From: Muricea muricata
Lineage: Eukaryota > Cnidaria > Anthozoa > Malacalcyonacea > Plexauridae
Reading direction: 5' to 3'
Assembly (NCBI GenBank): GCA_963855995.1
Contig: OY979728.1
Location: forward strand, 2,528,330-2,592,329
Length of the DNA: 64,000 nucleotides
The notes under the pieces were generated by a model. The model was not told the DNA's origin and searched no databases. It saw nothing but the letters and a program-made list of their open reading frames with translations. The position numbers and the translations under genes were made by a program. This document shows positions 1 through 50,790 of the stretch, in pieces (the stretch's first letter is position 1; each line of letters begins with the position of its first letter).

Positions 1-355
1 TCTAGTGCCCCAAACTTAGCTAAAATCCGAGCGTGTGCTGATCTGGCAATGCATGAAGAATTTTACATCATTTCCATGTAATATGGGAAAATGCCGAATG
101 AAAACACTTACCACATACAAGGCCAGTGTTCAGCCAGAATAGGTGAAATGAGTCGAATTCTAAAACAGCAATAAAATAAGTTGTTCTGGTTCCAAACTAA
201 GTTTTTTCATATACAAGGACCAAATTCATCATTTTGAGATAAGTTTCATGACATTTCATTGCATTTAGGCAAATTTCAAAAATTCAGGCCAATATACCAA
301 AGTGGAAAAAGTTCAAACATAGTGGTCAACATTAGCAGAGCGTCCAACGTACATC

Positions 356-3300
356 TCTAGAGCCCCAAACTTAGCTAAAATCCGAGCGTGTGCTGATCTG
401 GCAATGCATGAAGAATTTTACATCATTTCCATGTAATATGGAAAATGCCGAACGAAAACACTTACCACATACAAGGCCAGTGTTCAGCCAGAATAGGTGA
501 AATCAGTCGAATTCTAAAACAGCAATAAAATAAGTTGTTCTGGTTCCAAACTAAGTTTTTTCATATACAATGACCAAATTCATCATTTTGAGATAAGTTT
601 CATGACATTTCATTGCATTTAGGCAAATTTCAAAAATTCAGGCCAATATACCAAAGTGGAAAAAGTTCAAACATAGTGGTCAACATTAGCAGAGCGTCCA
701 ACGTACATCTCTAGTGCCCCAAACTTAGCTAAAATCCGAGCGTGTGCTGATCTGGCAATGCATGAAGAATTTTACATCATTTCCATGTAATATGGGAAAA
801 TGCCGAATGAAAACACTTACCACATACAAGGCCAGTGTTCAGCCAGAATAGGTGAAATGAGTCCAATTCTAAAACAGCAATAAAATAAGTTGTTCTGGTT
901 CCAAACTAAGTTTTTTCATATACAATGACCAAATTCATCATTTTGAGATAAGTTACATGACATTTCATTGCATTTAGGAAAATTTCAAAAATTCAGGCCA
1001 ATATACCAAAGTGGAAAAAGTTCAAACATAGTGGTCAACATTAGCAGAACGTCCAACGTACATCTCTAGTGCCCCAAACTTAGCTAAAATCCGAGCGTCT
1101 TCTGATCTGGCAATGCATGAAGAATTTTACATCATTTCCATGTAATACGGGAAAATGCCGAATGAAAACACTTACCACATACAAGGCCAGTGTCCAGCAA
1201 AAATAGGTGAAATGAGTCGAATTCTAAAACAGCAATAAAATAAGTTGTTCTGGTTCCAAACTAAGTTTTTTCATATACAATGACCAAATTCATCATTTTG
1301 AGATAAGTTTCATGACATTTCATCGCATTTAGGAAAATTTCAAAAATTCAGGCCAATATACCAAAGTGGAAAAAGTTCAAACATAGTGGTCAACATTAGC
1401 AGAGCGTCCAACGTACATCTCTAGTGCCCCAAACTTAGCTAAAATCCGAGCGTGTGCTGATCTGGCAATGCATGAAGAATTTTACATCATTTCCATGTAA
1501 TATGGGAAAATGTCGAATGAAAACACTTACCACATACAAGGCCAGTGTTCAGCCAGAATAGGTGAAATGAGTCGAATTCTAAAACAGCAATAAAATAAGT
1601 TGTTCTGGTTCCAAACTAAGTTTTTTCATATACAAGGACCAAATTCATCATTTTGAGATAAGTTTCATGACATTTCATTGCATTTAGGCAAATTTCAAAA
1701 ATTCAGGCCAATATACCAAAGTGGAAAAAGTTCAAACATAGTGGTCAACATTAGCAGAGCGTCCAACGTACATCTCTAGAGCCCCAAACTTAGCTAAAAT
1801 CCGAGCGTGTGCTGATCTGGCAATGCATGAAGAATTTTACATCATTTCCATGTAATATGGAAAATGCCGAATGAAAACACTTACCACATACAAGGCCAGT
1901 GTTCAGCCAGAATAGGTGAAATCAGTCGAATTCTAAAACAGCAATAAAATAAGTTGTTCTGGTTCCAAACTAAGTTTTTTCATATACAATGACCAAATTC
2001 ATCATTTTGAGATAAGTTTCATGACATTTCATTGCATTTAGGCAAATTTCAAAAATTCAGGCCAATATACCAAAGTGGAAAAAGTTCAAACATAGTGGTC
2101 AACATTAGCAGAGCATCCAACGTACATCTCTAGTGCCCCAAACTTAGCTAAAATCCGAGCGTGTGCTGATCTGGCAATGCATGAAGAATTTTACATCATT
2201 TCCATGTAATGTGGGAAAATGCCGAATGAAAACACTTACCACATACAAGGCCAGTGTTCAGCCAGAATAGGTGAAATCAGTCGAATTCTAAAACAGCAAT
2301 AAAATAAGTTGTTCTGGTTCCAAACTAAGTTTTTTCATATACAATGACCAAATTCATCATTTTGAGATAAGTTTCATGACATTTCATTGCATTTAGGCAA
2401 ATTTCAAAAATTCAGGCCAATATACCAAAGTGGAAAAAGTTCAAACATAGTGGTCAACATTAGCAGAGCGTCCAACGTACATCTCTAGTGCCCCAAACTT
2501 AGCTAAAATCCGAGCGTGTGCTGATCTGGCAATGCATGAAGAATTTTACATCATTTCCATGTAATGTGGGAAAATGCCGAATGAAAACACTTACCACATA
2601 CAAGGCCAGTGTTCAGCCAGAATAGGTGAAATGAGTCGAATTCTAAAACAGCAATAAAATAAGTTGTTCTGGTTCCAAACTAAGTTTTTTCATATACAAG
2701 GACCAAATTCATCATTTTGAGATAAGTTTAATGACATTTCATTGCATTTAGGAAAATTTCAAAAATTCAGGCCAATATACCAAAGTGGAAAAAGTTCAAA
2801 CATAGTGGTCAACATTAGCAGAGCGTCCAACGTACATCTCTAGTGCCCCAAACTTAGCTAAAATCCGAGCGTGTGCTGATCTGGCAATGCATGAAGAATT
2901 TTACATCATTTCCATGTAATATGGGAAAATGCCGAATGAAAACACTTACCACATACAAGGCCAGTGTTCAGCCAGAATAGGTGAAATGAGTCCAATTCTA
3001 AAACAGCAATAAAATAAGTTGTTCTGGTTCCAAACTAAGTTTTTTCATATACAATGACCAAATTCATCATTTAGAGATAAGTTTCATGACATTTCATTGC
3101 ATTTAGGCAAATTTCAAAAATTCAGGCCAATATACCAAAGTGGAAAAAGTTCAAACATAGTGGTCAACATTAGCAGAGCGTCCAACATACATCTCTAGTG
3201 CCCCAAACTTAGCTAAAATCCGAGCGTGTGCTGATCTGGCAATGCATGAAGAATTTTACATCATTTCCATGTAATGTGGGAAAATGCCGAATGAAAACAC

Positions 3301-6300
3301 TTACCACATACAAGGCCAGTGTTCAGCCAGAATAGGTGAAATGAGTCGAATTCTAAAACAGCAATAAAATAAGTTGTTCTGGTTCCAAACTAAGTTTTTT
3401 CATATACAAGGACCAAATTCATCATTTTGAGATAAGTTTAATGACATTTCATTGCATTTAGGAAAATTTCAAAAATTCAGGCCAATATACCAAAGTGGAA
3501 AAAGTTCAAACATAGTGGTCAACATTAGCAGAGCGTCCAACGTACATCTCTAGTACCCCAAACTTAGCTAAAATCTGAGCGTGTGCTGATCTGGCAATGC
3601 ATGAAGAATTTTACATCATTTCCATGTAATATGGGAAAATGCCGAATGAAAACACTTACCACATACAAGGCCAGTGTTCAGCCAGAATAGGTGAAATGAG
3701 TCGAATTCTAAAACAGCAATAAAATAAGTTGTTCTGGTTCCAAACTAAGTTTTTTCATATACAAGGACCAAATTCATCATTTTGAGATAAGTTTCATGAC
3801 ATTTCATTGCATTTAGGAAAATTTCAAAAATTCAGGCCAATATACCAAAGTGGAAAAAGTTCAAACATAGTGGTCAACATTAGCAGAGCGTCCAACGTAC
3901 ATCTCTAGTGCCCCAAACTTAGCTAAAATCCGAGCGTGTGCTGATCTGGCAATGCATGAAGAATTTTACATCATTTCCATGTAATATGGGAAAATGCCGA
4001 ATGAAAACACTTACCACATACAAGGCCAGTGTTCAGCCAGAATAGGTGAAATGAGTCCAATTCTAAAACAGCAATAAAATAAGTTGTTCTGGTTCCAAAC
4101 TAAGTTTTTTCATATACAATGACCAAATTCATCATTTAGAGATAAGTTTCATGACATTTCATTGCATTTAGGCAAATTTCAAAAATTCAGGCCAATATAC
4201 CAAAGTGGAAAAAGTTCAAACATAGTGGTCAACATTAGCAGAGCGTCCAACGTACATCTCTAGTGCCCCAAACTTAGCTAAAATCCGAGCGTGTGCTGAT
4301 CTGGCAATGCATGAAGAATTTTACATCATTTCCATGTAATATGGGAAAATGCCGAATGAAAACACTTACCACATACAAGGCCAGTGTTCAGCCAGAATAG
4401 GTGAAATGAGTCCAATTCTAAAACAGCAATAAAATAAGTTGTTCTGGTTCCAAACTAAGTTTTTTCATATACAATGACCAAATTCATCATTTAGAGATAA
4501 GTTTCATGACATTTCATTGCATTTAGGCAAATTTCAAAAATTCAGGCCAATATACCAAAGTGGAAAAAGTTCAAACATAGTGGTCAACATTAGCAGAGCG
4601 TCCAACATACATCTCTAGTGCCCCAAACTTAGCTAAAATCCGAGCGTGTGCTGATCTGGCAATGCATGAAGAATTTTACATCATTTCCATGTAATGTGGG
4701 AAAATGCCGAATGAAAACACTTACCACATACAAGGCCAGTGTTCAGCCAGAATAGGTGAAATGAGTCGAATTCTAAAACAGCAATAAAATAAGTTGTTCT
4801 GGTTCCAAACTAAGTTTTTTCATATACAAGGACCAAATTCATCATTTTGAGATAAGTTTAATGACATTTCATTGCATTTAGGAAAATTTCAAAAATTCAG
4901 GCCAATATACCAAAGTGGAAAAAGTTCAAACATAGTGGTCAACATTAGCAGAGCGTCCAACGTACATCTCTAGTGCCCCAAACTTAGCTAAAATCCGAGC
5001 GTGTGCTGATCTGGCAATGCATGAAGAATTTTACATCATTTCCATGTAATATGGAAAATGCCGAATGAAAACACTTACCACATACAAGGCCAGTGTTCAG
5101 CCAGAATAGGTGAAATCAGTCGAATTCTAAAACAGCAATAAAATAAGTTGTTCTGGTTCCAAACTAAGTTTTTTCATATACAATGACCAAATTCATCATT
5201 TTGAGATAAGTTTCATGACATTTCATTGCATTTAGGCAAATTTCAAAAATTCAGGCCAATATACCAAAGTGGAAAAAGTTCAAACATAGTGGTCAACATT
5301 AGCAGAGCGTCCAACGTACATCTCTAGTGCCCCAAACTTAGCTAAAATCCGAGCGTGTGCTGATCTGGCAATGCATGAAGAATTTTACATCATTTCCATG
5401 TAATGTGGGAAAATGCCGAATGAAAACACTTACCACATACAAGGCCAGTGTTCAGCCAGAATAGGTGAAATGAGTCGAATTCTAAAACAGCAATAAAATA
5501 AGTTGTTCTGGTTCCAAACTAAGTTTTTTCATATACAAGGACCAAATTCATCATTTTGAGATAAGTTTCATGACATTTCATTGCATTTAGGCAAATTTCA
5601 AAAATTCAGGCCAATATACCAAAGTGGAAAAAGTTCAAACATAGTGGTCAACATTAGCAGAGCGTCCAACGTACATCTCTAGAGCCCCAAACTTAGCTAA
5701 AATCCGAGCGTGTGCTGATCTGGCAATGCATGAAGAATTTTACATCATTTCCATGTAATATGGAAAATGCCGAACGAAAACACTTACCACATACAAGGCC
5801 AGTGTTCAGCCAGAATAGGTGAAATCAGTCGAATTCTAAAACAGCAATAAAATAAGTTGTTCTGGTTCCAAACTAAGTTTTTTCATATACAATGACCAAA
5901 TTCATCATTTTGAGATAAGTTTCATGACATTTCATTGCATTTAGGCAAATTTCAAAAATTCAGGCCAATATACCAAAGTGGAAAAAGTTCAAACATAGTG
6001 GTCAACATTAGCAGAGCGTCCAACGTACATCTCTAGTGCCCCAAACTTAGCTAAAATCCGAGCGTGTGCTGATCTGGCAATGCATGAAGAATTTTACATC
6101 ATTTCCATGTAATATGGGAAAATGCCGAATGAAAACACTTACCACATACAAGGCCAGTGTTCAGCCAGAATAGGTGAAATGAGTCCAATTCTAAAACAGC
6201 AATAAAATAAGTTGTTCTGGTTCCAAACTAAGTTTTTTCATATACAATGACCAAATTCATCATTTTGAGATAAGTTACATGACATTTCATTGCATTTAGG

Positions 6301-9225
6301 AAAATTTCAAAAATTCAGGCCAATATACCAAAGTGGAAAAAGTTCAAACATAGTGGTCAACATTAGCAGAACGTCCAACGTACATCTCTAGTGCCCCAAA
6401 CTTAGCTAAAATCCGAGCGTCTTCTGATCTGGCAATGCATGAAGAATTTTACATCATTTCCATGTAATACGGGAAAATGCCGAATGAAAACACTTACCAC
6501 ATACAAGGCCAGTGTCCAGCAAAAATAGGTGAAATGAGTCGAATTCTAAAACAGCAATAAAATAAGTTGTTCTGGTTCCAAACTAAGTTTTTTCATATAC
6601 AATGACCAAATTCATCATTTTGAGATAAGTTTCATGACATTTCATCGCATTTAGGAAAATTTCAAAAATTCAGGCCAATATACCAAAGTGGAAAAAGTTC
6701 AAACATAGTGGTCAACATTAGCAGAGCGTCCAACGTACATCTCTAGTGCCCCAAACTTAGCTAAAATCCGAGCGTGTGCTGATCTGGCAATGCATGAAGA
6801 ATTTTACATCATTTCCATGTAATATGGGAAAATGTCGAATGAAAACACTTACCACATACAAGGCCAGTGTTCAGCCAGAATAGGTGAAATGAGTCGAATT
6901 CTAAAACAGCAATAAAATAAGTTGTTCTGGTTCCAAACTAAGTTTTTTCATATACAAGGACCAAATTCATCATTTTGAGATAAGTTTCATGACATTTCAT
7001 TGCATTTAGGCAAATTTCAAAAATTCAGGCCAATATACCAAAGTGGAAAAAGTTCAAACATAGTGGTCAACATTAGCAGAGCGTCCAACGTACATCTCTA
7101 GAGCTCCAAACTTAGCTAAAATCCGAGCGTGTGCTGATCTGGCAATGCATGAAGAATTTTACATCATTTCCATGTAATATGGAAAATGCCGAATGAAAAC
7201 ACTTACCACATACAAGGCCAGTGTTCAGCCAGAATAGGTGAAATCAGTCGAATTCTAAAACAGCAATAAAATAAGTTGTTCTGGTTCCAAACTAAGTTTT
7301 TTCATATACAATGACCAAATTCATCATTTTGAGATAAGTTTCATGACATTTCATTGCATTTAGGCAAATTTCAAAAATTCAGGCCAATATACCAAAGTGG
7401 AAAAAGTTCAAACATAGTGGTCAACATTAGCAGAGCATCCAACGTACATCTCTAGTGCCCCAAACTTAGCTAAAATCCGAGCGTGTGCTGATCTGGCAAT
7501 GCATGAAGAATTTTACATCATTTCCATGTAATGTGGGAAAATGCCGAATGAAAACACTTACCACATACAAGGCCAGTGTTCAGCCAGAATAGGTGAAATC
7601 AGTCGAATTCTAAAACAGCAATAAAATAAGTTGTTCTGGTTCCAAACTAAGTTTTTTCATATACAATGACCAAATTCATCATTTTGAGATAAGTTTCATG
7701 ACATTTCATTGCATTTAGGCAAATTTCAAAAATTCAGGCCAATATACCAAAGTGGAAAAAGTTCAAACATAGTGGTCAACATTAGCAGAGCGTCCAACGT
7801 ACATCTCTAGTGCCCCAAACTTAGCTAAAATCCGAGCGTGTGCTGATCTGGCAATGCATGAAGAATTTTACATCATTTCCATGTAATGTGGGAAAATGCC
7901 GAATGAAAACACTTACCACATACAAGGCCAGTGTTCAGCCAGAATAGGTGAAATGAGTCGAATTCTAAAACAGCAATAAAATAAGTTGTTCTGGTTCCAA
8001 ACTAAGTTTTTTCATATACAAGGACCAAATTCATCATTTTGAGATAAGTTTCATGACATTTCATTGCATTTAGGAAAATTTCAAAAATTCAGGCCAATAT
8101 ACCAAAGTGGAAAAAGTTCAAACATAGTGGTCAACATTAGCAGAGCGTCCAACGTACATCTCTAGTGCCCCAAACTTAGCTAAAATCCGAGCGTGTGCTG
8201 ATCTGGCAATGCATGAAGAATTTTACATCATTTCCATGTAATATGGGAAAATGCCGAATGAAAACACTTACCACATACAAGGCCAGTGTTCAGCCAGAAT
8301 AGGTGAAATGAGTCCAATTCTAAAACAGCAATAAAATAAGTTGTTCTGGTTCCAAACTAAGTTTTTTCATATACAATGACCAAATTCATCATTTAGAGAT
8401 AAGTTTCATGACATTTCATTGCATTTAGGCAAATTTCAAAAATTCAGGCCAATATACCAAAGTGGAAAAAGTTCAAACATAGTGGTCAACATTAGCAGAG
8501 CGTCCAACATACATCTCTAGTGCCCCAAACTTAGCTAAAATCCGAGCGTGTGCTGATCTGGCAATGCATGAAGAATTTTACATCATTTCCATGTAATGTG
8601 GGAAAATGCCGAATGAAAACACTTACCACATACAAGGCCAGTGTTCAGCCAGAATAGGTGAAATGAGTCGAATTCTAAAACAGCAATAAAATAAGTTGTT
8701 CTGGTTCCAAACTAAGTTTTTTCATATACAAGGACCAAATTCATCATTTTGAGATAAGTTTAATGACATTTCATTGCATTTAGGAAAATTTCAAAAATTC
8801 AGGCCAATATACCAAAGTGGAAAAAGTTCAAACATAGTGGTCAACATTAGCAGAGCGTCCAACGTACATCTCTAGTACCCCAAACTTAGCTAAAATCTGA
8901 GCGTGTGCTGATCTGGCAATGCATGAAGAATTTTACATCATTTCCATGTAATATGGGAAAATGCCGAATGAAAACACTTACCACATACAAGGCCAGTGTT
9001 CAGCCAGAATAGGTGAAATGAGTCGAATTCTAAAACAGCAATAAAATAAGTTGTTCTGGTTCCAAACTAAGTTTTTTCATATACAAGGACCAAATTCATC
9101 ATTTTGAGATAAGTTTCATGACATTTCATTGCATTTAGGAAAATTTCAAAAATTCAGGCCAATATACCAAAGTGGAAAAAGTTCAAACATAGTGGTCAAC
9201 ATTAGCAGAGCGTCCAACGTACATC
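356..9225. repeat. Higher-order repeat A: 15-monomer offset, about 5.32 kb
   Basis: Ten consecutive monomers starting at 356 (to 3903) are matched in the same order by those starting at 5678 (to 9225). The pairs share rare private variants: the TAGAG/AACG monomer (356 and 5678), the TTACATG/GAACG monomer (710 and 6032), the GTCTTCTG/ATACGGG monomer (1065 and 6387), the TGTCG monomer (1420 and 6742), the GCATCC monomer (1775 and 7097) and the TAGTACC/CTGAG monomer (3549 and 8871). The offset is 5,322 bp. The block after about 3904 contains two adjacent TTTAGAG monomers in copy 1 and one in copy 2, so the match slips by one monomer there. Confidence 0.9.
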
Positions 9226-12200
9226 TCTAGTGCCCCAAACTTAGCTAAAATCCGAGCGTGTGCTGATCTGGCAATGCATGAAGAATTTTACATCATTTCC
9301 ATGTAATATGGGAAAATGCCGAATGAAAACACTTACCACATACAAGGCCAGTGTTCAGCCAGAATAGGTGAAATGAGTCCAATTCTAAAACAGCAATAAA
9401 ATAAGTTGTTCTGGTTCCAAACTAAGTTTTTTCATATACAATGACCAAATTCATCATTTAGAGATAAGTTTCATGACATTTCATTGCATTTAGGCAAATT
9501 TCAAAAATTCAGGCCAATATACCAAAGTGGAAAAAGTTCAAACATAGTGGTCAACATTAGCAGAGCGTCCAACATACATCTCTAGTGCCCCAAACTTAGC
9601 TAAAATCCGAGCGTGTGCTGATCTGGCAATGCATGAAGAATTTTACATCATTTCCATGTAATGTGGGAAAATGCCGAATGAAAACACTTACCACATACAA
9701 GGCCAGTGTTCAGCCAGAATAGGTGAAATGAGTCGAATTCTAAAACAGCAATAAAATAAGTTGTTCTGGTTCCAAACTAAGTTTTTTCATATACAAGGAC
9801 CAAATTCATCATTTTGAGATAAGTTTAATGACATTTCATTGCATTTAGCAAAATTTCAAAAATTCAGGCCAATATACCAAAGTGGAAAAAGTTCAAACAT
9901 AGTGGTCAACATTAGCAGAGCGTCCAACGTACATCTCTAGTACCCCAAACTTAGCTAAAATCTGAGCGTGTGCTGATCTGGCAATGCATGAAGAATTTTA
10001 CATCATTTCCATGTAATATGGGAAAATGCCGAATGAAAACACTTACCACATACAAGGCCAGTGTTCAGCCAGAATAGGTGAAATGAGTCCAATTCTAAAA
10101 CAGCAATAAAATAAGTTCTGGTTCCAAACTAAGTTTTTTCATATACAATGACCAAATTCATCATTTTGAGATAAGTTACATGACATTTCATTGCATTTAG
10201 GAAAATTTCAAAAATTCAGGCCAATATACCAAAGTGGAAAAAGTTCAAACATAGTGGTCAACATTAGCAGAACGTCCAACGTACATCTCTAGTGCCCCAA
10301 ACTTAGCTAAAATCCGAGCGTCTTCTGATCTGGCAATGCATGAAGAATTTTACATCATTTCCATGTAATACGGGAAAATGCCGAATGAAAACACTTACCA
10401 CATACAAGGCCAGTGTCCAGCAAAAATAGGTGAAATGAGTCGAATTCTAAAACAGCAATAAAATAAGTTGTTCTGGTTCCAAACTATGTTTTTTCATATA
10501 CAATGACCAAATTCATCATTTTGAGATAAGTTTCATGACATTTCATCGCATTTAAGAAAATTTCAAAAATTCAGGCCAATATACCAAAGTGGAAAAAGTT
10601 CAAACATAGTGGTCAACATTAGCAGAGCGTCCAACGTACATCTCTAGTGCCCCAAACTTAGCTAAAATCCGAGCGTGTGCTGATCTGGCAATGCATGAAG
10701 AATTTTACATCATTTCCATGTAATATGGGAAAATGTCGAATGAAAACACTTACCACATACAAGGCCAGTGTTCAGCCAGAATAGGTGAAATGAGTCGAAT
10801 TCTAAAACAGCAATAAAATAAGTTGTTCTGGTTCCAAACTAAGTTTTTTCATATACAATGACCAAATTCATCATTTTGAAATAAGTTTCATGACATTTCA
10901 TCGCATTTAGGAAAATTTCAAAAATTCAGGCTAATATACCAAAGTGGAGAGAGTTCAAACATAGTGGTCAACATTAGCAGAGCGTCCAACGTACATCTCT
11001 AGTGCCCCAAACTTAGCTAAAATCCGAGCGTGTGCTGATCTGGCAATGCATGAAGAATTTTACATCATTTCCATGTAATGTGGGAAAATGCCGAATGAAA
11101 ACACTTACCACATACAAGGCCAGTGTTCAGCCAGAATGGGTTAAATGAGTCGAATTCTAAAACAGCAATAAAATAAGTTGTTCTGGTTCCAAACTAAGTT
11201 TTTTCATATACAATGACCAAATTCATCATTTTGAGATAAGTTTAATGACATTTCATTGCATTTAGGAAAATTTCAAAAATTCAGGCCAATATACCAAAGT
11301 GGAAAAAGTTCAAACATAGTGGTCAACATTAGCAGAGCGTCCAACGTACATCTCTAGTGCCCCAAACTTAGCTAAAATCTGAGCGTGTGCTGATCTGGCA
11401 ATGCATGAAGAATTTTACATCATTTCCATGTAATATGGGAAAATGCCGAATGAAAACACTTACCACATACAAGGCCAGTGTTCAGCCAGAATAGGTGAAA
11501 TGAGTCCAATTCTAAAACAGCAATAAAATAAGTTGTTCTGGCTCCAAACTAAGTTTTTTCATATACAATGACCAAATTCATCATTTTGAGATAAGTTTCA
11601 TGACATTTCATCGCATTTAGGCAAATTTCAAAAATTCAGGCCAATATACCAAAGTGGAAAAAGTTCAAACATAGTGGTCAACATTAGCAGAGCGTCCAAC
11701 GTACATCTCTAGTGCCCCAAACTTAGCTAAAATCCGAGCGTGTGCTGATCTGGCAATGCATGAAGAATTTTACATCATTTCCATGTAATGTGGGAAAATG
11801 CCGAATGAAAACACTTACCACATACAAGGCCAGTGTTCAGCCAGAATAGGTGAAATGAGTCGAATTCTAAAACAGCAATAAAATAAGTTGTTCTGGTTCC
11901 AAACTAAGTTTTTTCATATACAAGGACCAAATTCATCATTTTGAGATAAGTTTCATGACATTTCATTGCATTTAGGAAAATTTCAAAAATTCAGGCCAAT
12001 ATACCAAAGTGGAAAAAGTTCAAACATAGTGGTCAACATTAGCAGAGCGTCCAACGTACATCTCTAGTGCCCCAAACTTAGCTAAAATCCGAGCGTGTGC
12101 TGATCTGGCAATGCATGAAGAATTTTACATCATTTCCATGTAATATGGGAAAATGCCGAATGAAAACACTTACCACATACAAGGCCAGTGTTCAGCCAGA

Positions 12201-14900
12201 ATAGGTGAAATGAGTCGAATTCTAAAACAGCAATAAAATAAGTTGTTCTGGTTCCAAACTAAGTTTTTTCATATACAAGGACCAAATTCATCATTTTGAG
12301 ATAAGTTTCATGACATTTCATTGCATTTAGGAAAATTTCAAAAATTCAGGCCAATATACCAAAGTGGAAAAAGTTCAAACATAGTGGTCAACATTAGCAG
12401 AGCGTCCAACGTACATCTCTAGTGCCCCAAACTTAGCTAAAATCCGAGCGTGTGCTGATCTGGCAATGCATGAAGAATTTTACATCATTTCCATGTAATA
12501 TGGGAAAATGCCGAATGAAAACACTTACCACATACAAGGCCAGTGTTCAGCCAGAATAGGTGAAATGAGTCCAATTCTAAAACAGCAATAAAATAAGTTG
12601 TTCTGGTTCCAAACTAAGTTTTTTCATATACAATGACCAAATTCATCATTTTGAGATAAGTTACATGACATTTCATTGCATTTAGGCAAATTTCAAAAAT
12701 TCAGGCCAATATACCAAAGTGGAAAAAGTTCAAACATAGTGGTCAACATTAGCAGAGCGTCCAACGTACATCTCTAGTGCCCCAAACTTAGCTAAAATCC
12801 GAGCGTGTGCTGATCTGGCAATGCATGAAGAATTTTACATCATTTCCATGTAATATGGGAAAATGCCGAATGAAAACACTTACCACATACAAGGCCAGTG
12901 TTCAGCCAGAATAGGTGAAATGAGTCCAATTCTAAAACAGCAATAAAATAAGTTGTTCTGGTTCCAAACTAAGTTTTTTCATATACAATGACCAAATTCA
13001 TCATTTTGAGATAAGTTACATGACATTTCATTGCATTTAGGAAAATTTCAAAAATTCAGGCCAATATACCAAAGTGGAAAAAGTTCAAACATAGTGGTCA
13101 ACATTAGCAGAACGTCCAACGTACATCTCTAGTGCCCCAAACTTAGCTAAAATCCGAGCGTCTTCTGATCTGGCAATGCATGAAGAATTTTACATCATTT
13201 CCATGTAATACGGGAAAATGCCGAATGAAAACACTTACCACATACAAGGCCAGTGTCCAGCAAAAATAGGTGAAATGAGTCGAATTCTAAAACAGCAATA
13301 AAATAAGTTGTTCTGGTTCCAAACTAAGTTTTTTCATATACAATGACCAAATTCATCATTTTGAGATAAGTTTCATGACATTTCATCGCATTTAGGAAAA
13401 TTTCAAAAATTCAGGCCAATATACCAAAGTGGAAAAAGTTCAAACATAGTGGTCAACATTAGCAGAGCGTCCAACGTACATCTCTAGTGCCCCAAACTTA
13501 GCTAAAATCCGAGCGTGTGCTGATCTGGCAATGCATGAAGAATTTTACATCATTTCCATGTAATATGGGAAAATGTCGAATGAAAACACTTACCACATAC
13601 AAGGCCAGTGTTCAGCCAGAATAGGTGAAATGAGTCGAATTCTAAAACAGCAATAAAATAAGTTGTTCTGGTTCCAAACTAAGTTTTTTCATATACAAGG
13701 ACCAAATTCATCATTTTGAGATAAGTTTCATGACATTTCATTGCATTTAGGCAAATTTCAAAAATTCAGGCCAATATACCAAAGTGGAAAAAGTTCAAAC
13801 ATAGTGGTCAACATTAGCAGAGCGTCCAACGTACATCTCTAGAGCCCCAAACTTAGCTAAAATCCGAGCGTGTGCTGATCTGGCAATGCATGAAGAATTT
13901 TACATCATTTCCATGTAATATGGAAAATGCCGAATGAAAACACTTACCACATACAAGGCCAGTGTTCAGCCAGAATAGGTGAAATCAGTCGAATTCTAAA
14001 ACAGCAATAAAATAAGTTGTTCTGGTTCCAAACTAAGTTTTTTCATATACAATGACCAAATTCATCATTTTGAGATAAGTTTCATGACATTTCATTGCAT
14101 TTAGGCAAATTTCAAAAATTCAGGCCAATATACCAAAGTGGAAAAAGTTCAAACATAGTGGTCAACATTAGCAGAGCGTCCAACGTACATCTCTAGTGCC
14201 CCAAACTTAGCTAAAATCCGAGCGTGTGCTGATCTGGCAATGCATGAAGAATTTTACATCATTTCCATGTAATGTGGGAAAATGCCGAATGAAAACACTT
14301 ACCACATACAAGGCCAGTGTTCAGCCAGAATAGGTGAAATGAGTCGAATTCTAAAACAGCAATAAAATAAGTTGTTCTGGTTCCAAACTAAGTTTTTTCA
14401 TATACAAGGACCAAATTCATCATTTTGAGATAAGTTTCATGACATTTCATTGCATTTAGGCAAATTTCAAAAATTCAGGCCAATATACCAAAGTGGAAAA
14501 AGTTCAAACATAGTGGTCAACATTAGCAGAGCGTCCAACGTACATCTCTAGTGCCCCAAACTTAGCTAAAATCCGAGCGTGTGCTGATCTGGCAATGCAT
14601 AAAGAATTTTACATCATTTCCATGTAATGTGGGAAAATGCCGAATGAAAACACTTACCACATACAAGGCCAGTGTTCAGCCAGAATAGGTGAAATGAGTC
14701 GAATTCTAAAACAGCAATAAAATAAGTTGTTCTGGTCCAAACTAAGTTTTTTCATATACAAGGACCAAATTCATCATTTTGAGATAAGTTTCATGACATT
14801 TCATTGCATTTAGGAAAATTTCAAAAATTCAGGCCAATATACCAAAGTGGAAAAAGTTCAAACATAGTGGTCAACATTAGCAGAGCGTCCAACGTACATC

Positions 14901-17900: not shown

Positions 17901-20900
17901 AAACAGCAATAAAATAAGTTGTTCTGGTTCCAAACTAAGTTTTTTCATATACAATGACCAAATTCATCATTTTGAGATAAGTTTCATGACATTTCATTGC
18001 ATTTAGGCAAATTTCAAAAATTCAGGCCAATATACCAAAGTGGAAAAAGTTCAAACATAGTGGTCAACATTAGCAGAGCGTCCAACGTACATCTCTAGTG
18101 CCCCAAACTTAGCTAAAATCCGAGCGTGTGCTGATCTGGCAATGCATGAAGAATTTTACATCATTTCCATGTAATGTGGGAAAATGCCGAATGAAAACAC
18201 TTACCACATACAAGGCCAGTGTTCAGCCAGAATAGGTGAAATCAGTCGAATTCTAAAACAGCAATAAAATAAGTTGTTCTGGTTCCAAACTAAGTTTTTT
18301 CATATACAATGACCAAATTCATCATTTTGAGATAAGTTTCATGACATTTCATTGCATTTAGGCAAATTTCAAAAATTCAGGCCAATATACCAAAGTGGAA
18401 AAAGTTCAAACATAGTGGTCAACATTAGCAGGGCGTCCAACGTACATCTCTAGTGCCCCAAACTTAGCTAAAATCCGAGCGTGTGCTGATCTGGCAATGC
18501 ATGAAGAATTTTACATCATTTCCATGTAATATGGAAAATGCCGAATGAAAACACTTACCACATACAAGGCCAGTGTTCAGCCAGAATAGGTGAAATCAGT
18601 CGAATTCTAAAACAGCAATAAAATAAGTTGTTCTGGTTCGAAACTAAGTTTTTTCATATACAATGACCAAATTCATCATTTTGAGATAAGTTTCATGACA
18701 TTTCATTGCATTTAGGCAAATTTCAAAAATTCAGGCCAATATACCAAAGTGGAAAAAGTTCAAACATAGTGGTCAACATTAGCAGAGCGTCCAACGTACA
18801 TCTCTAGTGCCCCAAACTTAGCTAAAATCCGAGCGTGTGCTGATCTGGCAATGCATGAAGAATTTTACATCATTTCCATGTAATGTGGGAAAATGCCGAA
18901 TGAAAACACTTACCACATACAAGGCCAGTGTTCAGCCAGAATAGGTGAAATCAGTCGAATTCTAAAACAGCAATAAAATAAGTTGTTCTGGTTCCAAACT
19001 AAGTTTTTTCATATACAATGACCAAATTCATCATTTTGAGATAAGTTTCATGACATTTCATTGCATTTAGGCAAATTTCAAAAATTCAGGCCAATATACC
19101 AAAGTGGAAAAAGTTCAAACATAGTGGTCAACATTAGCAGAGCGTCCAACGTACATCTCTAGTGCCCCAAACTTAGCTAAAATCCGAGCGTGTGCTGATC
19201 TGGCAATGCATGAAGAATTTTACATCATTTCCATGTAATGTGAAAAAATGCCGAATGAAAACACTTACCACATACAAGGCCAGTGTTCAGCCAGAATAGG
19301 TGAAATCAGTCGAATTCTAAAACAGCAATAAAATAAGTTGTTCTGGTTCCAAACTAAGTTTTTTCATATACAATGACCAAATTCATCATTTTGAGATAAG
19401 TTTCATGACATTTCATTGCATTTAGGAAAATTTCAAAAATTCAGGCCAATATACCAAAGTGGAAAAAGTTCAAACATAGTGGTCAACATTAGCAGAGCGT
19501 CCAACGTACATCTCTAGTGCCCCAAACTTAGCTAAAATCCGAGCGTGTGCTGATCTGGCAATGCATGAAGAATTTTACATCATTTCCATGTAATATGGGA
19601 AAATGCCGAATGAAAACACTTACCACATACAAGGCCAGTGTTCAGCCAGAATAGGTGAAATGAGTCCAATTCTAAAACAGCAATAAAATAAGTTGTTCTG
19701 GTTCCAAACTAAGTTTTTTCATATACAATGACCAAATTCATCATTTAGAGATAAGTTTCATGACATTTCATTGCATTTAGGCAAATTTCAAAAATTCAGG
19801 CCAATATACCAAAGTGGAAAAAGTTCAAACATAGTGGTCAACATTAGCAGAGCGTCCAACATACATCTCTAGTGCCCCAAACTTAGCTAAAATCCGAGCG
19901 TGTGCTGATCTGGCAATGCATGAAGAATTTTACATCATTTCCATGTAATGTGGGAAAATGCCGAATGAAAACACTTACCACATACAAGGCCAGTGTTCAG
20001 CCAGAATAGGTGAAATGAGTCGAATTCTAAAACAGCAATAAAATAAGTTGTTCTGGTTCCAAACTAAGTTTTTTCATATACAAGGACCAAATTCATCATT
20101 TTGAGATAAGTTTAATGACATTTCATTGCATTTAGGAAAATTTCAAAAATTCAGGCCAATATACCGAAGTGGAAAAAGTTCAAACATAGTGGTCAACATT
20201 AGCAGAGCGTCCAACGTACATCTCTAGTGCCCCAAACTTAGCTAAAATCTGAGCGTGTGCTGATCTGGCAATGCATGAAGAATTTTACATCATTTCCATG
20301 TAATATGGGAAAATGCCGAATGAAAACACTTACCACATACAAGGCCAGTGTTCAGCCAGAATAGGTGAAATCAGTCGAATTCTAAAACAGCAATAAAATA
20401 AGTTGTTCTGGTTCCAAACTAAGTTTTTTCATATACAATGACCAAATTCATCATTTTGAGATAAGTTTCATGACATTTCATTGCATTTAGGAAATTTCAA
20501 AAATTCAGGCCAATATACCAAAGTGGAAAAAGTTCAAACATAGTGGTCAACATTAGCAGAGCGTCCAACGTACATCTCTAGTGCCCCAAACTTAGCTAAA
20601 ATCCGAGCGTGTGCTGATCTGGCAATGCATGAAGAATTTTACATCATTTCCATGTAATATGGGAAAATGCCGAATGAAAACACTTACCACATACAAGGCC
20701 AGTGTTCAGCCAGAATAGGTGAAATGAGTCGAATTCTAAAACAGCAATAAAATAAGTTGTGCTGGTTCCAAACTAAGTTTTTTCATATACAAGGACCAAA
20801 TTCATCATTTTGAGATAAGTTTCATGACATTTCATTGCATTTAGGAAAATTTCAAAAATTCAGGCCAATATACCAAAGTGGAAAAAGTTCAAACATAGTG

Positions 20901-23900
20901 GTCAACATTAGCAGAGCGTCCAACGTACATCTCTAGTGCCCCAAACTTAGCTAAAATCCGAGCGTGTGCTGATCTGGCAATGCATGAAGAATTTTACATC
21001 ATTTCCATGTAATATGGGAAAATGCCGAATGAAAACACTTACCACATACAAGGCCAGTGTTCAGCCAGAATAGGTGAAATGAGTCCAATTCTAAAACAGC
21101 AATAAAATAAGTTGTTCTGGTTCCAAACTAAGTTTTTTCATATACAATGACCAAATTCATCATTTAGAGATAAGTTTCATGACATTTCATTGCATTTAGG
21201 CAAATTTCAAAAATTCAGGCCAATATACCAAAGTGGAAAAAGTTCAAACATAGTGGTCAACATTAGCAGAGCGTCCAACATACATCTCTAGTGCCCCAAA
21301 CTTAGCTAAAATCCGAGCGTGTGCTGATCTGGCAATGCATGAAGAATTTTACATCATTTCCATGTAATGTGGGAAAATGCCGAATGAAAACACTTACCAC
21401 ATACAAGGCCAGTGTTCAGCCAGAATAGGTGAAATGAGTCGAATTCTAAAACAGCAATAAAATAAGTTGTTCTGGTTCCAAACTAAGTTTTTTCATATAC
21501 AAGGACCAAATTCATCATTTTGAGATAAGTTTAATGACATTTCATTGCATTTAGGAAAATTTCAAAAATTCAGGCCAATATACCAAAGTGGAAAAAGTTC
21601 AAACATAGTGGTCAACATTAGCAGAGCGTCCAACGTACATCTCTAGTACCCCAAACTTAGCTAAAATCTGAGCGTGTGCTGATCTGGCAATGCATGAAGA
21701 ATTTTACATCATTTCCATGTAATATGGGAAAATGACGAATGAAAACACTTACCACATACAAGGCCAGTGTTCAGCCAGAATAGGTGAAATGAGTCCAATT
21801 CTAAAACAGCAATAAAATAAGTTGTTCTGGTTCCAAACTAAGTTTTTTCATATACAATGACCAAATTCATCATTTTGAGATAAGTTACATGACATTTCAT
21901 TGCATTTAGGAAAATTTCAAAAATTCAGGCCAATATACCAAAGTGGAAAAAGTTCAAACATAGTGGTCAACATTAGCAGAACGTCCAACGTACATCTCTA
22001 GTGCCCCAAACTTAGCTAAAATCCGAGCGTCTTCTGATCTGGCAATGCATGAAGAATTTTACATCATTTCCATGTAATACGGGAAAATGCCGAATGAAAA
22101 CACTTACCACATACAAGGCCAGTGTCCAGCAAAAATAGGTGAAATGAGTCGAATTCTAAAACAGCAATAAAATAAGTTGTTCTGGTTCCAAACTATGTTT
22201 TTTCATATACAATGACCAAATTCATCATTTTGAGATAAGTTTCATGACATTTCATCGCATTTAGGAAAATTTCAAAAATTCAGGCCAATATACCAAAGTG
22301 GAAAAAGTTCAAACATAGTGGTCAACATTAGCAGAGCGTCCAACGTACATCTCTAGTGCCCCAAACTTAGCTAAAATCCGAGCGTGTGCTGATCTGGCAA
22401 TGCATGAAGAATTTTACATCATTTCCATGTAATATGGGAAAATGTCGAATGAAAACACTTACCACATACAAGGCCAGTGTTCAGCCAGAATAGGTGAAAT
22501 GAGTCGAATTCTAAAACAGCAATAAAATAAGTTGTTCTGGTTCCAAACTAAGGTTTTTCATATACAATGACCAAATTCATCATTTTGAGATAAGTTTCAT
22601 GACATTTCATCGCATTTAGGAAAATTTCAAAAATTCAGGCTAATATACCAAAGTGGAAAAAGTTCAAACATAGTGGTCAACATTAGCAGAGCGTCCAACG
22701 TACATCTCTAGTGCCCCAAACTAAGCTAAAATCCGAGCGTGTGCTGATCTGGCAATGCATGAAGAATTTTACATCATTTCCATGTAATGTGGGAAAATGC
22801 CGAATGAAAACACTTACCACATACAAGGCCAGTGTTCAGCCAGAATAGGTTAAATGAGTCGAATTCTAAAACAGCAATAAAATAAGTTGTTCTGGTTCCA
22901 AACTAAGTTTTTTCATATACAATGACCAAATTCATCATTTTGAGATAAGTTTAATGACATTTCATTGCATTTAGGAAAATTTATAAAATTCAGGCCAATA
23001 TACCAAAGTGGAAAAAGTTCAAACATAGTGGTCAACATTAGCAGAGCGTCCAACGTACATCTCTAGTGCCCCAAACTTAGCTAAAATCTGAGCGTGTGCT
23101 GATCTGGCAATGCATGAAGAATTTTACATCATTTCCATGTAATATGGGAAAATGCCGAATGAAAACACTTACCACATACAAGGCCAGTGTTCAGCCAGAA
23201 TAGGTGAAATGAGTCCAATTCTAAAACAGCAATAAAATAAGTTGTTCTGGCTCCAAACTAAGTTTTTTCATATACAATGACCAAATTCATCATTTTGAGA
23301 TAAGTTTCATGACATTTCATCGCATTTAGGCAAATTTCAAAAATTCAGGCCAATATACCAAAGTGGAAAAAGTTCAAACATAGTGGTCAACATTAGCAGA
23401 GCGTCCAACGTACATCTCTAGTGCCCCAAACTTAGCTAAAATCCGAGCGTGTGCTGATCTGGCAATGCATGAAGAATTTTACATCATTTCCATGTAATGT
23501 GGGAAAATGCCGAATGAAAACACTTACCACATACAAGGCCAGTGTTCAGCCAGAATAGGTGAAATGAGTCGAATTCTAAAACAGCAATAAAATAAGTTGT
23601 TCTGGTTCCAAACTATGTTTTTTCATATACAAGGACCAAATTCATCATTTTGAGATAAGTTTCATGACATTTCATTGCATTTAGGAAAATTTCAAAAATT
23701 CAGGCCAATATACCAAAGTGGAAAAAGTTCAAACATAGTGGTCAACATTAGCAGAGCGTCCAACGTACATCTCTAGTGCCCCAAACTTAGCTAAAATCCG
23801 AGCGTGTGCTGATCTGGCAATGCATGAAGAATTTTACATCATTTCCATGTAATGTGGGAAAATGCCGAATGAAAACACTTACCACATACAAGGCCAGTGT

Positions 23901-25544
23901 TCAGCCAGAATAGGTGAAATCAGTCGAATTCTAAAACAGCAATAAAATAAGTTGTTCTGGTTCCAAACTAAGTTTTTTCATATACAAGGACCAAATTCAT
24001 CATTTTGAGATAAGTTTCATGACATTTCATTGCATTTAGGAAAATTTCAAAAATTCAGGCCAATATACCAAAGTGGAAAAAGTTCAAACATAGTGGTCAA
24101 CATTAGCAGAGCGTCCAACGTACATCTCTAGAGCCCCAAACTTAGCTAAAATCCGAGCGTGTGCTGATCTGGCAATGCATGAAGAATTTTACATCATTTC
24201 CATGTAATATGGAAAATGCCGAATGAAAACACTTACCACATACAAGGCCAGTGTTCAGCCAGAATAGGTGAAATCAGTCGAATTCTAAAACAGCAATAAA
24301 ATAAGTTGTTCTGGTTCCAAACTAAGTTTTTTCATATACAATGACCAAATTCATCATTTTGAGATAAGTTTCATGACATTTCATTGCATTTAGGCAAATT
24401 TAAAAAATTCAGGCCAATATACCAAAGTGGAAAAAGTTCAAACATAGTGGTCAACATTAGCAGAGCGTCCAACGTACATCTCTAGTGCCCCAAACTTAGC
24501 TAAAATCCGAGCGTGTGCTGATCTGGCAATGCATGAAGAATTTTACATCATTTCCATGTAATGTGGGAAAATGCCGAATGAAAACACTTACCACATACAA
24601 GGCCAGTGTTCAGCCAGAATAGGTGAAATGAGTCGAATTCTAAAACAGCAATAAAATAAGTTGTTCTGGTTCCAAACTAAGTTTTTTCATATACAAGGAC
24701 CAAATTCATCATTTTGAGATAAGTTTCATGACATTTCATTGCATTTAGGAAAATTTCAAAAATTCAGGCCAATATACCAAAGTGGAAAAAGTTCAAACAT
24801 AGTGGTCAACATTAGCAGAGCGTCCAACGTACATCTCTAGTGCCCCAAACTTAGCTAAAATCCGAGCGTGTGCTGATCTGGCAATGCATGAAGAATTTTA
24901 CATCATTTCCATGTAATATGGAAAATGCCGAATGAAAACACTTACCACATACAAGGCCAGTGTTCAGCCAGAATAGGTGAAATCAGTCGAATTCTAAAAC
25001 AGCAATAAAATAAGTTGTTCTGGTTCCAAACTAAGTTTTTTCATATACAATGACCAAATTCATCATTTTGAGATAAGTTTCATGACATTTCATTGCATTT
25101 AGGCAAATTTCAAAAATTCAGGCCAATATACCAAAGTGGAAAAAGTTCAAACATAGTGGTCAACATTAGCAGAGCGTCCAACGTACATCTCTAGTGCCCC
25201 AAACTTAGCTAAAATCCGAGCGTGTGCTGATCTGGCAATGCATGAAGAATTTTACATCATTTCCATGTAATGTGGGAAAATGCCGAATGAAAACACTTAC
25301 CACATACAAGGCCAGTGTTCAGCCAGAATAGGTGAAATCAGTCGAATTCTAAAACAGCAATAAAATAAGTTGTTCTGGTTCCAAACTAAGTTTTTTCATA
25401 TACAATGACCAAATTCATCATTTTGAGATAAGTTTCATGACATTTCATTGCATTTAGGCAAATTTAAAAAATTCAGGCCAATATACCAAAGTGGAAAAAG
25501 TTCAAACATAGTGGTCAACATTAGCAGAGCGTCCAACGTACATC
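14901..25544. repeat. Higher-order repeat B: 20-monomer offset, 7,096 bp
   Basis: Monomers from 14901 to 18448 are matched in order by those from 21997 to 25544. Private markers repeat at an exact 7,096-bp distance: the TTTATAAAATT variant (15885 and 22981) and the AATTTAAAAAATT variant (17301 and 24397). Neighbouring markers also agree: GGCTAATA, AGGTTAAATGAG, CTGGCTCC and AACTATG followed by ACAAGG. The two copies differ by only scattered changes, such as AAGGTTTTT near 22551, which implies recent duplication or homogenisation. Confidence 0.9.
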
Positions 25545-26963
25545 TCTAGTGCCCCAAACTTAGCTAAAATCCGAGCGTGTGCTGATCTGGCAATGCATGA
25601 AGAATTTTACATCATTTCCATGTAATGTGGGAAAATGCCGAATGAAAACACTTACCACATACAAGGCCAGTGTTCAGCCAGAATAGGTGAAATGAGTCGA
25701 ATTCTAAAACAGCAATAAAATAAGTTGTTCTGGTTCCAAACTAAGTTTTTTCATATACAAGGACCAAATTCATCATTTTGAGATAAGTTTCATGACATTT
25801 CATTGCATTTAGGAAAATTTCAAAAATTCAGGCCAATATACCAAAGTGGAAAAAGTTCAAACATAGTGGTCAACATTAGCAGAGCGTCCAACGTACATCT
25901 CTAGTGCCCCAAACTTAGCTAAAATCCGAGCGTGTGCTGATCTGGCAATGCATGAAGAATTTTACATCATTTCCATGTAATATGGAAAATGCCGAATGAA
26001 AACACTTACCACATACAAGGCCAGTGTTCAGCCAGAATAGGTGAAATCAGTCGAATTCTAAAACAGCAATAAAATAAGTTGTTCTGGTTCCAAACTAAGT
26101 TTTTTCATATACAATGACCAAATTCATCATTTTGAGATAAGTTTCATGACATTTCATTGCATTTAGGCAAATTTCAAAAATTCAGGCCAATATACCAAAG
26201 TGGAAAAAGTTCAAACATAGTGGTCAACATTAGCAGAGCGTCCAACGTACATCTCTAGTGCCCCAAACTTAGCTAAAATCCGAGCGTGTGCTGATCTGGC
26301 AATGCATGAAGAATTTTACATCATTTCCATGTAATGTGGGAAAATGCCGAATGAAAACACTTACCACATACAAGGCCAGTGTTCAGCCAGAATAGGTGAA
26401 ATCAGTCGAATTCTAAAACAGCAATAAAATAAGTTGTTCTGGTTCCAAACTAAGTTTTTTCATATACAATGACCAAATTCATCATTTTGAGATAAGTTTC
26501 ATGACATTTCATTGCATTTAGGCAAATTTCAAAAATTCAGGCCAATATACCAAAGTGGAAAAAGTTCAAACATAGTGGTCAACATTAGCAGAGCGTCCAA
26601 CGTACATCTCTAGTGCCCCAAACTTAGCTAAAATCCGAGCGTGTGCTGATCTGGCAATGCATGAAGAATTTTACATCATTTCCATGTAATGTGGGAAAAT
26701 GCCGAATGAAAACACTTACCACATACAAGGCCAGTGTTCAGCCAGAATAGGTGAAATGAGTCGAATTCTAAAACAGCAATAAAATAAGTTGTTCTGGTTC
26801 CAAACTAAGTTTTTTCATATACAAGGACCAAATTCATCATTTTGAGATAAGTTTCATGACATTTCATTGCATTTAGGCAAATTTCAAAAATTCAGGCCAA
26901 TATACCAAAGTGGAAAAAGTTCAAACATAGTGGTCAACATTAGCAGAGCGTCCAACGTACATC

Positions 26964-29900
26964 TCTAGTGCCCCAAACTTAGCTAAAATCCGAGCGTGTG
27001 CTGATCTGGCAATGCATGAAGAATTTTACATCATTTCCATGTAATATGGGAAAATGCCGAATGAAAACACTTACCACATACAAGGCCAGTGTTCAGCCAG
27101 AATAGGTGAAATGAGTCCAATTCTAAAACAGCAATAAAATAAGTTGTTCTGGTTCCAAACTAAGTTTTTTCATATACAATGACCAAATTCATCATTTAGA
27201 GATAAGTTTCATGACATTTCATTGCATTTAGGCAAATTTCAAAAATTCAGGCCAATATACCAAAGTGGAAAAAGTTCAAACATAGTGGTCAACATTAGCA
27301 GAGCGTCCAACATACATCTCTAGTGCCCCAAACTTAGCTAAAATCCGAGCGTGTGCTGATCTGGCAATGCATGAAGAATTTTACATCATTTCCATGTAAT
27401 GTGGGAAAATGCCGAATGAAAACACTTACCACATACAAGGCCAGTGTTCAGCCAGAATAGGTGAAATGAGTCGAATTCTAAAACAGCAATAAAATAAGTT
27501 GTTCTGGTTCCAAACTAAGTTTTTTCATATACAAGGACCAAATTCATCATTTTGAGATAAGTTTAATGACATTTCATTGCATTTAGGAAAATTTCAAAAA
27601 TTCAGGCCAATATACCAAAGTGGAAAAAGTTCAAACATAGTGGTCAACATTAGCAGAGCGTCCAACGTACATCTCTAGTGCCCCAAACTTAGCTAAAATC
27701 TGAGCGTGTGCTGATCTGGCAATGCATGAAGAATTTTACATCATTTCCATGTAATATGGGAAAATGCCGAATGAAAACACTTACCACATACAAGGCCAGT
27801 GTTCAGCCAGAATAGGTGAAATCAGTCGAATTCTAAAACAGCAATAAAATAAGTTGTTCTGGTTCCAAACTAAGTTTTTTCATATACAATGACCAAATTC
27901 ATCATTTTGAGATAAGTTTCATGACATTTCATTGCATTTAGGCAAATTTCAAAAATTCAGGCCAATATACCAAAGTGGAAAAAGTTCAAACATAGTGGTC
28001 AACATTAGCAGAGCGTCCAACGTACATCTCTAGTGCCCCAAACTTAGCTAAAATCCGAGCGTGTGCTGATCTGGCAATGCATGAAGAATTTTACATCATT
28101 TCCATGTAATGTGGGAAAATGCCGAATGAAAACACTTACCACATACAAGGCCAGTGTTCAGCCAGAATAGGTGAAATCAGTCGAATTCTAAAACAGCAAT
28201 AAAATAAGTTGTTCTGGTTCCAAACTAAGTTTTTTCATATACAATGACCAAATTCATCATTTTGAGATAAGTTTCATGACATTTCATTGCATTTAGGCAA
28301 ATTTCAAAAATTCAGGCCAATATACCAAAGTGGAAAAAGTTCAAACATAGTGGTCAACATTAGCAGAGCGTCCAACGTACATCTCTAGTGCCCCAAACTT
28401 AGCTAAAATCCGAGCGTGTGCTGATCTGGCAATGCATGAAGAATTTTACATCATTTCCATGTAATGTGGGAAAATGCCGAATGAAAACACTTACCACATA
28501 CAAGGCCAGTGTTCAGCCAGAATAGGTGAAATGAGTCGAATTCTAAAACAGCAATAAAATAAGTTGTTCTGGTTCCAAACTAAGTTTTTTCATATACAAG
28601 GACCAAATTCATCTATTTGAGATAAGTTTCATGACATTTCATTGCATTTAGGCAAATTTCAAAAATTCAGGCCAATATACCAAAGTGGAAAAAGTTCAAA
28701 CATAGTGGTCAACATTAGCAGAGCGTCCAACGTACATCTCTAGTGCCCCAAACTTAGCTAAAATCCGAGCGTGTGCTGATCTGGCAATGCATGAAGAATT
28801 TTACATCATTTCCATGTAATATGGGAAAATGCCGAATGAAAACACTTACCACATACAAGGCCAGTGTTCAGCCAGAATAGGTGAAATGAGTCCAATTCTA
28901 AAACAGCAATAAAATAAGTTGTTCTGGTTCCAAACTAAGTTTTTTCATATACAATGACCAAATTCATCATTTAGAGATAAGTTTCATGACATTTCATTGC
29001 ATTTAGGCAAATTTCAAAAATTCAGGCCAATATACCAAAGTGGAAAAAGTTCAAACATAGTGGTCAACATTAGCAGAGCGTCCAACATACATCTCTAGTG
29101 CCCCAAACTTAGCTAAAATCCGAGCGTGTGCTGATCTGGCAATGCATGAAGAATTTTACATCATTTCCATGTAATGTGGGAAAATGCCGAATGAAAACAC
29201 TTACCACATACAAGGCCAGTGTTCAGCCAGAATAGGTGAAATGAGTCGAATTCTAAAACAGCAATAAAATAAGTTGTTCTGGTTCCAAACTAAGTTTTTT
29301 CATATACAAGGACCAAATTCATCATTTTGAGATAAGTTTAATGACATTTCATTGCATTTAGGAAAATTTCAAAAATTCAGGCCAATATACCAAAGTGGAA
29401 AAAGTTCAAACATAGTGGTCAACATTAGCAGAGCGTCCAACGTACATCTCTAGTGCCCCAAACTTAGCTAAAATCTGAGCGTGTGCTGATCTGGCAATGC
29501 ATGAAGAATTTTACATCATTTCCATGTAATATGGGAAAATGCCGAATGAAAACACTTACCACATACAAGGCCAGTGTTCAGCCAGAATAGGTGAAATCAG
29601 TCGAATTCTAAAACAGCAATAAAATAAGTTGTTCTGGTTCCAAACTAAGTTTTTTCATATACAATGACCAAATTCATCATTTTGAGATAAGTTTCATGAC
29701 ATTTCATTGCATTTAGGAAATTTCAAAAATTCAGGCCAATATACCAAAGTGGAAAAAGTTCAAACATAGTGGTCAACATTAGCAGAGCGTCCAACGTACA
29801 TCTCTAGTGCCCCAAACTTAGCTAAAATCCGAGCGTGTGCTGATCTGGCAATGCATGAAGAATTTTACATCATTTCCATGTAATGTGGGAAAATGCCGAA

Positions 29901-32900: not shown

Positions 32901-34059
32901 CATTTAGGCAAATTTCAAAAATTCAGGCCAATATACCAAAGTGGAAAAAGTTCAAACATAGTGGTCAACATTAGCAGAGCGTCCAACGTACATCTCTAGT
33001 GCCACAAACTTAGCTAAAATCCAAGCGTGTGCTGATCTGGCAATGCATGAAGAATTTTACATCATTTCCATGTAATATGGGAAAATGCCGAATGAAAACA
33101 CTTACCACATACAAGGCCAGTGTTCAGCCAGAATAGGTGAAATGAGTCCAATTCTAAAACAGCAATAAAACAAGTTGTTCTGGTTCCAAACTAAGTTTTT
33201 TCATATACAATGACCAAATTCACCATTTTGAGATAAGTTTCATGACATTTCATTGCATTTAGGAAAATTTCAAAAATTCAGGCCAATATACCGAAGTGGA
33301 AAAAGTTCAAACATAGTGGTCAACATTAGCAGAGCGTCCAACGTACATCTCTAGTGCCCCAAACTTAGCTAAAATCCGAGCGTGTGCTGATCTGGCAATG
33401 CATGAAGAATTTTACATCATTTCCATGTAATATGGGAAAATGCCGAATGAAAACACTTACCACATACAAGGCCAGTGTTCAGCCAGAATAGGTGAAATGA
33501 GTCGAATTCTAAAACAGCAATAAAATAAGTTGTTCTGGTTCCAAACTAAGTTTTTTCATATACAATGACCAAATTCATCATTTTGAGATAAGTTTCATGA
33601 CATTTCATTGCATTTAGGCAAATTTCAAAAATTCAGGCCAATATAGCAAAGTGGAAAAAGTTCAAACATAGTGGTCAACATTAGCAGAGCGTCCAACGTA
33701 CATCTCTAGTGCCCCAAACTTAGCTAAAATCCGAGCGTGTGCTGATCTGGCAATGCATGAAGAATTTTACATCATTTCCATGTAATATCGGAAAATGCCG
33801 AATGAAAACACTTACGACATACAAGGCCAGTGTCCAGCAAAAATAGGTGAAATGAGTCGAATTCTAAAACAGCAATAAAATAAGTTGTTCTGGTTCCAAA
33901 CTAAGTTTTTTCATATACAATGACCAAATTCATCATTTTGAGATAAGTTTCATGACATTTCATCGCATTTAGGCAAATTTCAAAAATTCAGGCCAATATA
34001 CCAAAGTGGAAAAAGTTCAAACATAGTGGTCAACATTAGCAGAGCGTCCAACGTACATC
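26964..34059. repeat. Short higher-order repeats (5-, 4- and 3-monomer) at the right end of the array
   Basis: The trio of variants GAGTCC-TTTAGAG-CATAC, TTAATG and CTGAG-CAGTCG occurs from 26964, again from 28739 (offset 1,775 bp, five monomers), and the first two again from about 30158 (offset about 1,419 bp, four monomers). Nearer the edge, the TCTAGCCCCC start at 31222 repeats at 32641 (1,419 bp), and the GTGCCACAAAC start at 31931 repeats at 32995 (1,064 bp, three monomers). Private substitutions become more frequent towards 34 kb. Confidence 0.8.
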
Positions 34060-50780: not shown

Positions 50781-50790
50781 ACAGAAAAAT

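Follow-up and report, generated by a model that had tools for sequence, protein, structure and literature searches.

In the CEN178 arrays of Arabidopsis, a few nearly identical monomers form blocks that recur at varied distances. The higher-order repeats of human alpha satellite, in the passages of PMC8997354 that deal with them, are made of variant monomers copied in ordered sets, with mixed unit sizes per array and decayed copies at the edges, and identity between the monomers of one higher-order unit can be as low as 50-70%. For New World monkey alpha satellite, the relevant part of PMC4053949 describes a 343-bp monomer that is a fixed dimer, and Melters et al. 2013, who surveyed tandem repeats of plants and animals, found the multimers to be more alike than the monomers. 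In the present study, we analysed a window of 64,000 nucleotides from the anthozoan Muricea muricata (positions 2,528,330-2,592,329 of contig OY979728.1, assembly GCA_963855995.1, called C13 below, in a genome of 453 Mb and 74 contigs), which opens with a satellite of 355-bp unit. At the level of titles and abstract openings, this family was not found in the literature. We consider it likely that the array is homogenised by repeated out-of-register exchange, by which blocks of variants of mixed size are copied.

The 355-bp tandem array was detected by Tandem Repeats Finder at window positions 1-34,535 with 97% matches. When the sequence was cut at a fixed seed, 98 starts were obtained, and after alignment 96 intact head-to-tail monomers of 352-355 bp were counted on the forward strand in 1-34,059, followed by a decayed 97th. 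The first-pass annotation had given the array the span 1-34,059; intact monomers do fill that span, but the array extends to the left and decayed homologous sequence continues to the right. With the 100 kb fetched left of the window and the loci of pattern matches, the whole array comes to about 171.5 kb and roughly 480 monomers, of which the window holds the right-hand part, and its left start lies near C13:2,390.8 kb, about 137.5 kb left of the window. In total 415 C13 monomers were decomposed, the decayed edge monomer being counted in, while about 23 kb (2,405.6-2,428.3 kb) is covered by pattern matches only. An exact 34-mer of the C13 type occurs 405 times forward and 147 times in reverse in the genome. 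The coverage by the satellite is interrupted only once in the stretches read, by an insertion of about 460 bp with inverted ends inside an irregular interval of 826 bp; a second irregular interval measures 711 bp, and counted offsets are slightly shifted across both. The 96 monomers in the window differ on average at 6.7 positions per pair (about 2%), with 101 identical pairs and 56 distinct sequences.

The variants in these monomers recur in order. At an offset of 15 monomers (5,322 bp), positions 1-4,474 are found again at 5,323-9,796 with 99.87% identity and 6 mismatches, and at an offset of 20 monomers (7,096 bp), positions 14,938-18,530 return at 22,034-25,626 with 99.81% identity (7 mismatches over 3,593 bp, including an exact repeat of 2,090 bp). 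At offset 20 the two copies do not adjoin each other: about 3.5 kb of other monomers lies between them. Near-identical copies directly in tandem were seen at offsets 3 and 5, both within 24,211-29,717: the 3-monomer register repeats 24,211-25,985 at 25,275-27,049 (1,775 bp, 99.89%, 2 mismatches), and the 5-monomer register repeats 25,984-27,942 at 27,759-29,717 (1,959 bp, 99.90%, 2 mismatches). All of these copies are on the forward strand, and offset 4 consists of exact repeats of 851, 801 and 791 bp. With a limit of one difference per monomer, 12 successive monomers match at offset 15, the longest run in 500 permutations of monomer order being 4, and 10 runs of at least three monomers were counted in the window against a maximum of 5 in 500 permutations. 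Thus the ordered haplotypes reported in the first pass at offsets of 15, 20, 5, 4 and 3 monomers are confirmed with the right numbers.

In the part of the array that begins at 2,428 kb, with 374 monomers, ordered blocks of at least five monomers number 15, whereas 100 permutations yielded none. These blocks lie at ten offsets (5, 6, 8, 10, 11, 13, 15, 16, 18 and 20), and no single multimer tiles the array; in the window the tandem stretches are short and occur at offsets 3, 5 and 15 only. Since no one multimer is in tandem over the array, we have named it block-copied rather than a uniform higher-order array. Block copies are 99.8-99.9% alike, against about 98% between monomers, so that multimers are more alike than single monomers, as in the Melters survey; units of at least three monomers were rarely seen there because of read length, whereas blocks of 12 monomers occur here. 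Furthermore, 20 monomers differ by at least two changes from every other; 17 of them are better described as two-part chimeras (8 by at least two differences) and 3 are not, these being counts with no null run beside them. That the repeated blocks are an artefact of assembly is very improbable. Near-identical tandem copies of several kilobases are hard to assemble in general, but the copies here carry scattered single changes, more than half of the window monomers are distinct, no N bases occur in the 100 kb to the left of the window, and ordered blocks stand at ten offsets, with copies at a step of three monomers also in a second array on contig C9.

The likeness to alpha satellite drawn in the first pass holds in that ordered sets of variants are copied together, in mixed sizes and with decayed copies at the edges, but it is loose, as the monomers here differ by about 2% and not by tens of percent, no one unit tiles the array and no CENP-B box is found in it at one mismatch or fewer. 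The CEN178 arrays of Arabidopsis resemble it in their blocks at varied distances and differ in unit length and in their centromere role. In the mechanism that we propose, sister chromatids or homologues would repeatedly exchange out of register and so keep the array nearly uniform, each exchange duplicating or deleting anything from a few monomers to about twenty as one block. Because blocks would be gained or lost whole, neighbouring variant sets would be copied together and several block lengths would coexist. Most likely, the array has expanded recently and is subject to unequal exchange.

Neutral unequal exchange, with breakpoints falling inside monomers, was simulated forward in time under 20 settings, the mean size ranging over 2-30 monomers and every setting being run 6 times; a second set of 12 settings, with and without conversion, also had 6 runs each. 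Neutral unequal exchange alone yielded ordered blocks at mixed offsets, the closest setting at matching divergence having a mean size of 8 monomers. The first pass had named stepwise unequal exchange or conversion as the source of the registers. Exchange fits the near-identical tandem blocks and the mixed registers of the simulations; conversion may contribute but is not needed to explain the blocks. Several points weigh against our interpretation. The simulations assume an array at equilibrium, and no setting fits every measure. With a mean size of 8 and a mutation value of 0.0007, 30-75 blocks were obtained in the first set and 23-174 in the conversion set, against 15 observed; distinct monomers made up 22-37% in the simulations against about 51% observed, and the change with distance was steeper than observed. 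Conversion mends the number of blocks and the distinct share, but divergence and four-gamete conflicts then exceed those observed. In addition, break-induced replication at stalled forks, which would copy blocks in place of reciprocal unequal exchange, remains compatible with the block pattern. The model of break-induced replication, as given in part of PMC8997354, predicts nested blocks and duplication favoured over deletion, and low divergence together with many distinct monomers suggests recent expansion. On the other side, neutral exchange already yields mixed registers and no observation separates the two, and we rate break-induced replication as unlikely. We infer that the process is unequal crossover, although break-induced replication can leave the same pattern.

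The edges of the array add an older layer. The final nine of the 96 monomers carry 1.56 private changes each (0-0.59 in all other bins), and the intact monomers are followed on the forward strand by decayed edge copies at 34,060-34,589, which are 85% and 81% identical to the consensus. An insertion of 1,177 bp with 11-bp inverted ends comes next (34,590-35,766); it lies inside a relic monomer between two copies of the 8-bp GCATTTCC, and we take it to be hAT-like from the type of its ends and of its duplication. An inverted repeat of 114 bp was also seen within this insertion, with arms 95% complementary (35,253-35,366 and 35,385-35,498). Beyond it, relic copies of the satellite family with a 365-bp unit, about 70% identical to the consensus, run on the forward strand from 35,767 to about 36,545, and a separate small relic array on the same strand, with a unit of about 349 bp and 67-71% identity to the consensus, is found at 47,285-48,060. 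At the left edge, the same type of relic stands just outside the array, split by about 870 bp of other sequence, and in the longer matches the left pieces are 88-93% identical to the right ones. The young core is thus flanked by old borders on both sides. The observed/expected ratio of CpG, 0.73 in the flank, drops to 0.52 for the consensus and to 0.36 and 0.17 for two relics, which would fit the decay of methylated repeats.

With the relics included, the two halves of the unit prove to be related. The half-to-half score was 31.2, against maxima of 14.0 in 60 column permutations and 18.0 in 60 block shuffles and a score of 9.3 for the reversed half; one relic row carrying the wrong half in its tail was left out of this profile test. 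The relics alone gave 36.8 (control maxima 14.7 and 15.6). The relation is seen only with the relics, since the young consensus with the edge copy scored 9.5, not above the controls, and the consensus alone scored 23.0 against a shuffle mean of 23.5, which was not significant. Moreover, the right relic shows a step of 365 bp and then one of 172 bp, the latter as would be expected from exchange between half-units. By its sequence, the present 355-bp unit looks like a fixed and eroded dimer of an ancestor of about 178 bp. In this it resembles New World monkey alpha satellite as described in the part of PMC4053949 on its monomer, a likeness drawn from the description; as a difference, the relation between halves is visible here only with decayed relics, and any centromeric role would be hypothetical.

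Relatives of the satellite were found on other contigs. C9 holds an array of 8.4 kb with 22 monomers at 187.7-196.2 kb, and its monomers are 96.8% alike within the array and 92.4% alike to C13 monomers, of which 40 out of 415 were sampled. Comparison of six C9 monomers with C13 gave 13 near-fixed differences, and C9 and C13 carry different homogenised variants. Among C9 monomers 10-17, pairs at step 3 are 99.4-100% identical; some pairs at other steps are equally close, and no permutation was run for this array. C1 holds a solo piece of 278 bp with 95% identity, about 11 Mb from the contig end. The genome contains 946 exact matches (220 forward and 726 reverse) to a 26-base C9-type pattern. 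The 100 of them that were listed are all on C8, 99 on the forward strand at 281-349 kb and one on the reverse strand at 14,375 kb; this last one sits among several tandem monomers about 262 kb from the right end of the 14,638-kb contig. As matches are listed in contig order and those listed begin on C8, C1 to C7 would carry none. In the left stretch of C8, successive copies of one variant type are spaced 5, 4, 2, 7, 8, 5, 5, 9, 3, 4, 9 and 4 monomers apart.

These positions raise the tentative possibility that the family is a chromosome-end satellite that is oriented alike with respect to every end, with arrays homogenised per chromosome yet shared between ends, and with three time layers, namely the ancestor of about 178 bp, the edge relics of about 350-365 bp and the young 355-bp cores with shifting registers. 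The right end of C8 has 93 copies of TTAGGG in its last 600 bases, and the first 600 bases of this contig read N in the part viewed; no telomere array was found at either end of C9 or C13. That the family resides at chromosome ends is thus far a live possibility, but the array on C13, lying 2.39 Mb within a contig that has no telomere cap, does not itself show such a location. If this set of chromosome-end satellites were confirmed, the size, rate and direction of exchange would be directly measurable. By eye, the first and last 600 bases of C13 were also seen to share inverted sequence, perhaps because each end falls within a copy of the same repeat.

The first pass had further suggested that the array may mark a centromere, a view that gains no support here. 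According to it, the locus would be the core of a centromere or pericentromere, with higher-order repeats favoured for carrying kinetochore chromatin. The unit of about two nucleosome lengths, the array size of about 171.5 kb and a young core with old edges, as described for centromeric satellites in part of PMC8997354, speak for this reading. Against it, gene frames start about 7 kb from the array, and relatives of the satellite form the 8.4-kb array on C9 and, among the matches listed, arrays near both ends of C8 (281-349 kb from one end and about 262 kb from the other). The array also has no CENP-B box at one mismatch or fewer, the only match in the window lies outside it at 50,052-50,066, where chance would give 3.45 matches on average, and no WW rhythm or unusual folding was found in the satellite. 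Many centromeric satellites lack a CENP-B box. Ordered monomer blocks alone do not mark a centromere, because step-3 copies also occur in the C9 array, and we hold a centromeric role to be quite improbable. No Rfam match, to a self-cleaving ribozyme or any other RNA family, reached the gathering score in the window; a sub-threshold snoRNA match (E 0.87) was seen in four monomers, and the tRNA search was negative. Exact satellite patterns had no match in viral_contigs or in the phage and plasmid collections. In genome_contigs, a single match of 20 bases to a bacterial record was taken as chance. The array would be without a sequence-specific job, a passenger in interstitial or chromosome-end heterochromatin.

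The gene frames right of the array lie 7-25 kb from its edge. Three frames follow the order of the eIF3J profile, each singly below the curated cut-off, and one of them matches a solved eIF3J (E 0.003). A p8/Nupr frame (E 5.9e-16) and an L24e frame (E 2.6e-13) were also found, together with two frames of a flavoprotein family, one above and one below the family cut-off, which we take for a putative PPCDC. The further frames tested gave no family match. A protein search with p8 returned 8 relatives, and none was confirmed in viral_contigs. In the same flank, two tandem copies of a unit of about 115 bp, about 90% alike and with no relation to the satellite noticed, stand at 46,302-46,529. Inverted repeats at 39,417-39,619, 44,079-44,322 and 50,772-50,918, with arms of 64-90 nt that are 83-94% complementary, are perhaps small transposons, and a 75-nt sequence present in opposite orientations at 55,008-55,082 and 56,922-56,996 (91% complementary, 1.8 kb apart) is perhaps a dispersed repeat.

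Overall, the satellite is evolving in a known way, and its blocks are an ordinary trace of uneven recombination. The locus provides a well-resolved natural record of tandem-repeat renewal: the size of the copied blocks, the decay at the edges, the variants proper to each array and the older layer of dimers can all be followed around this single assembled locus.
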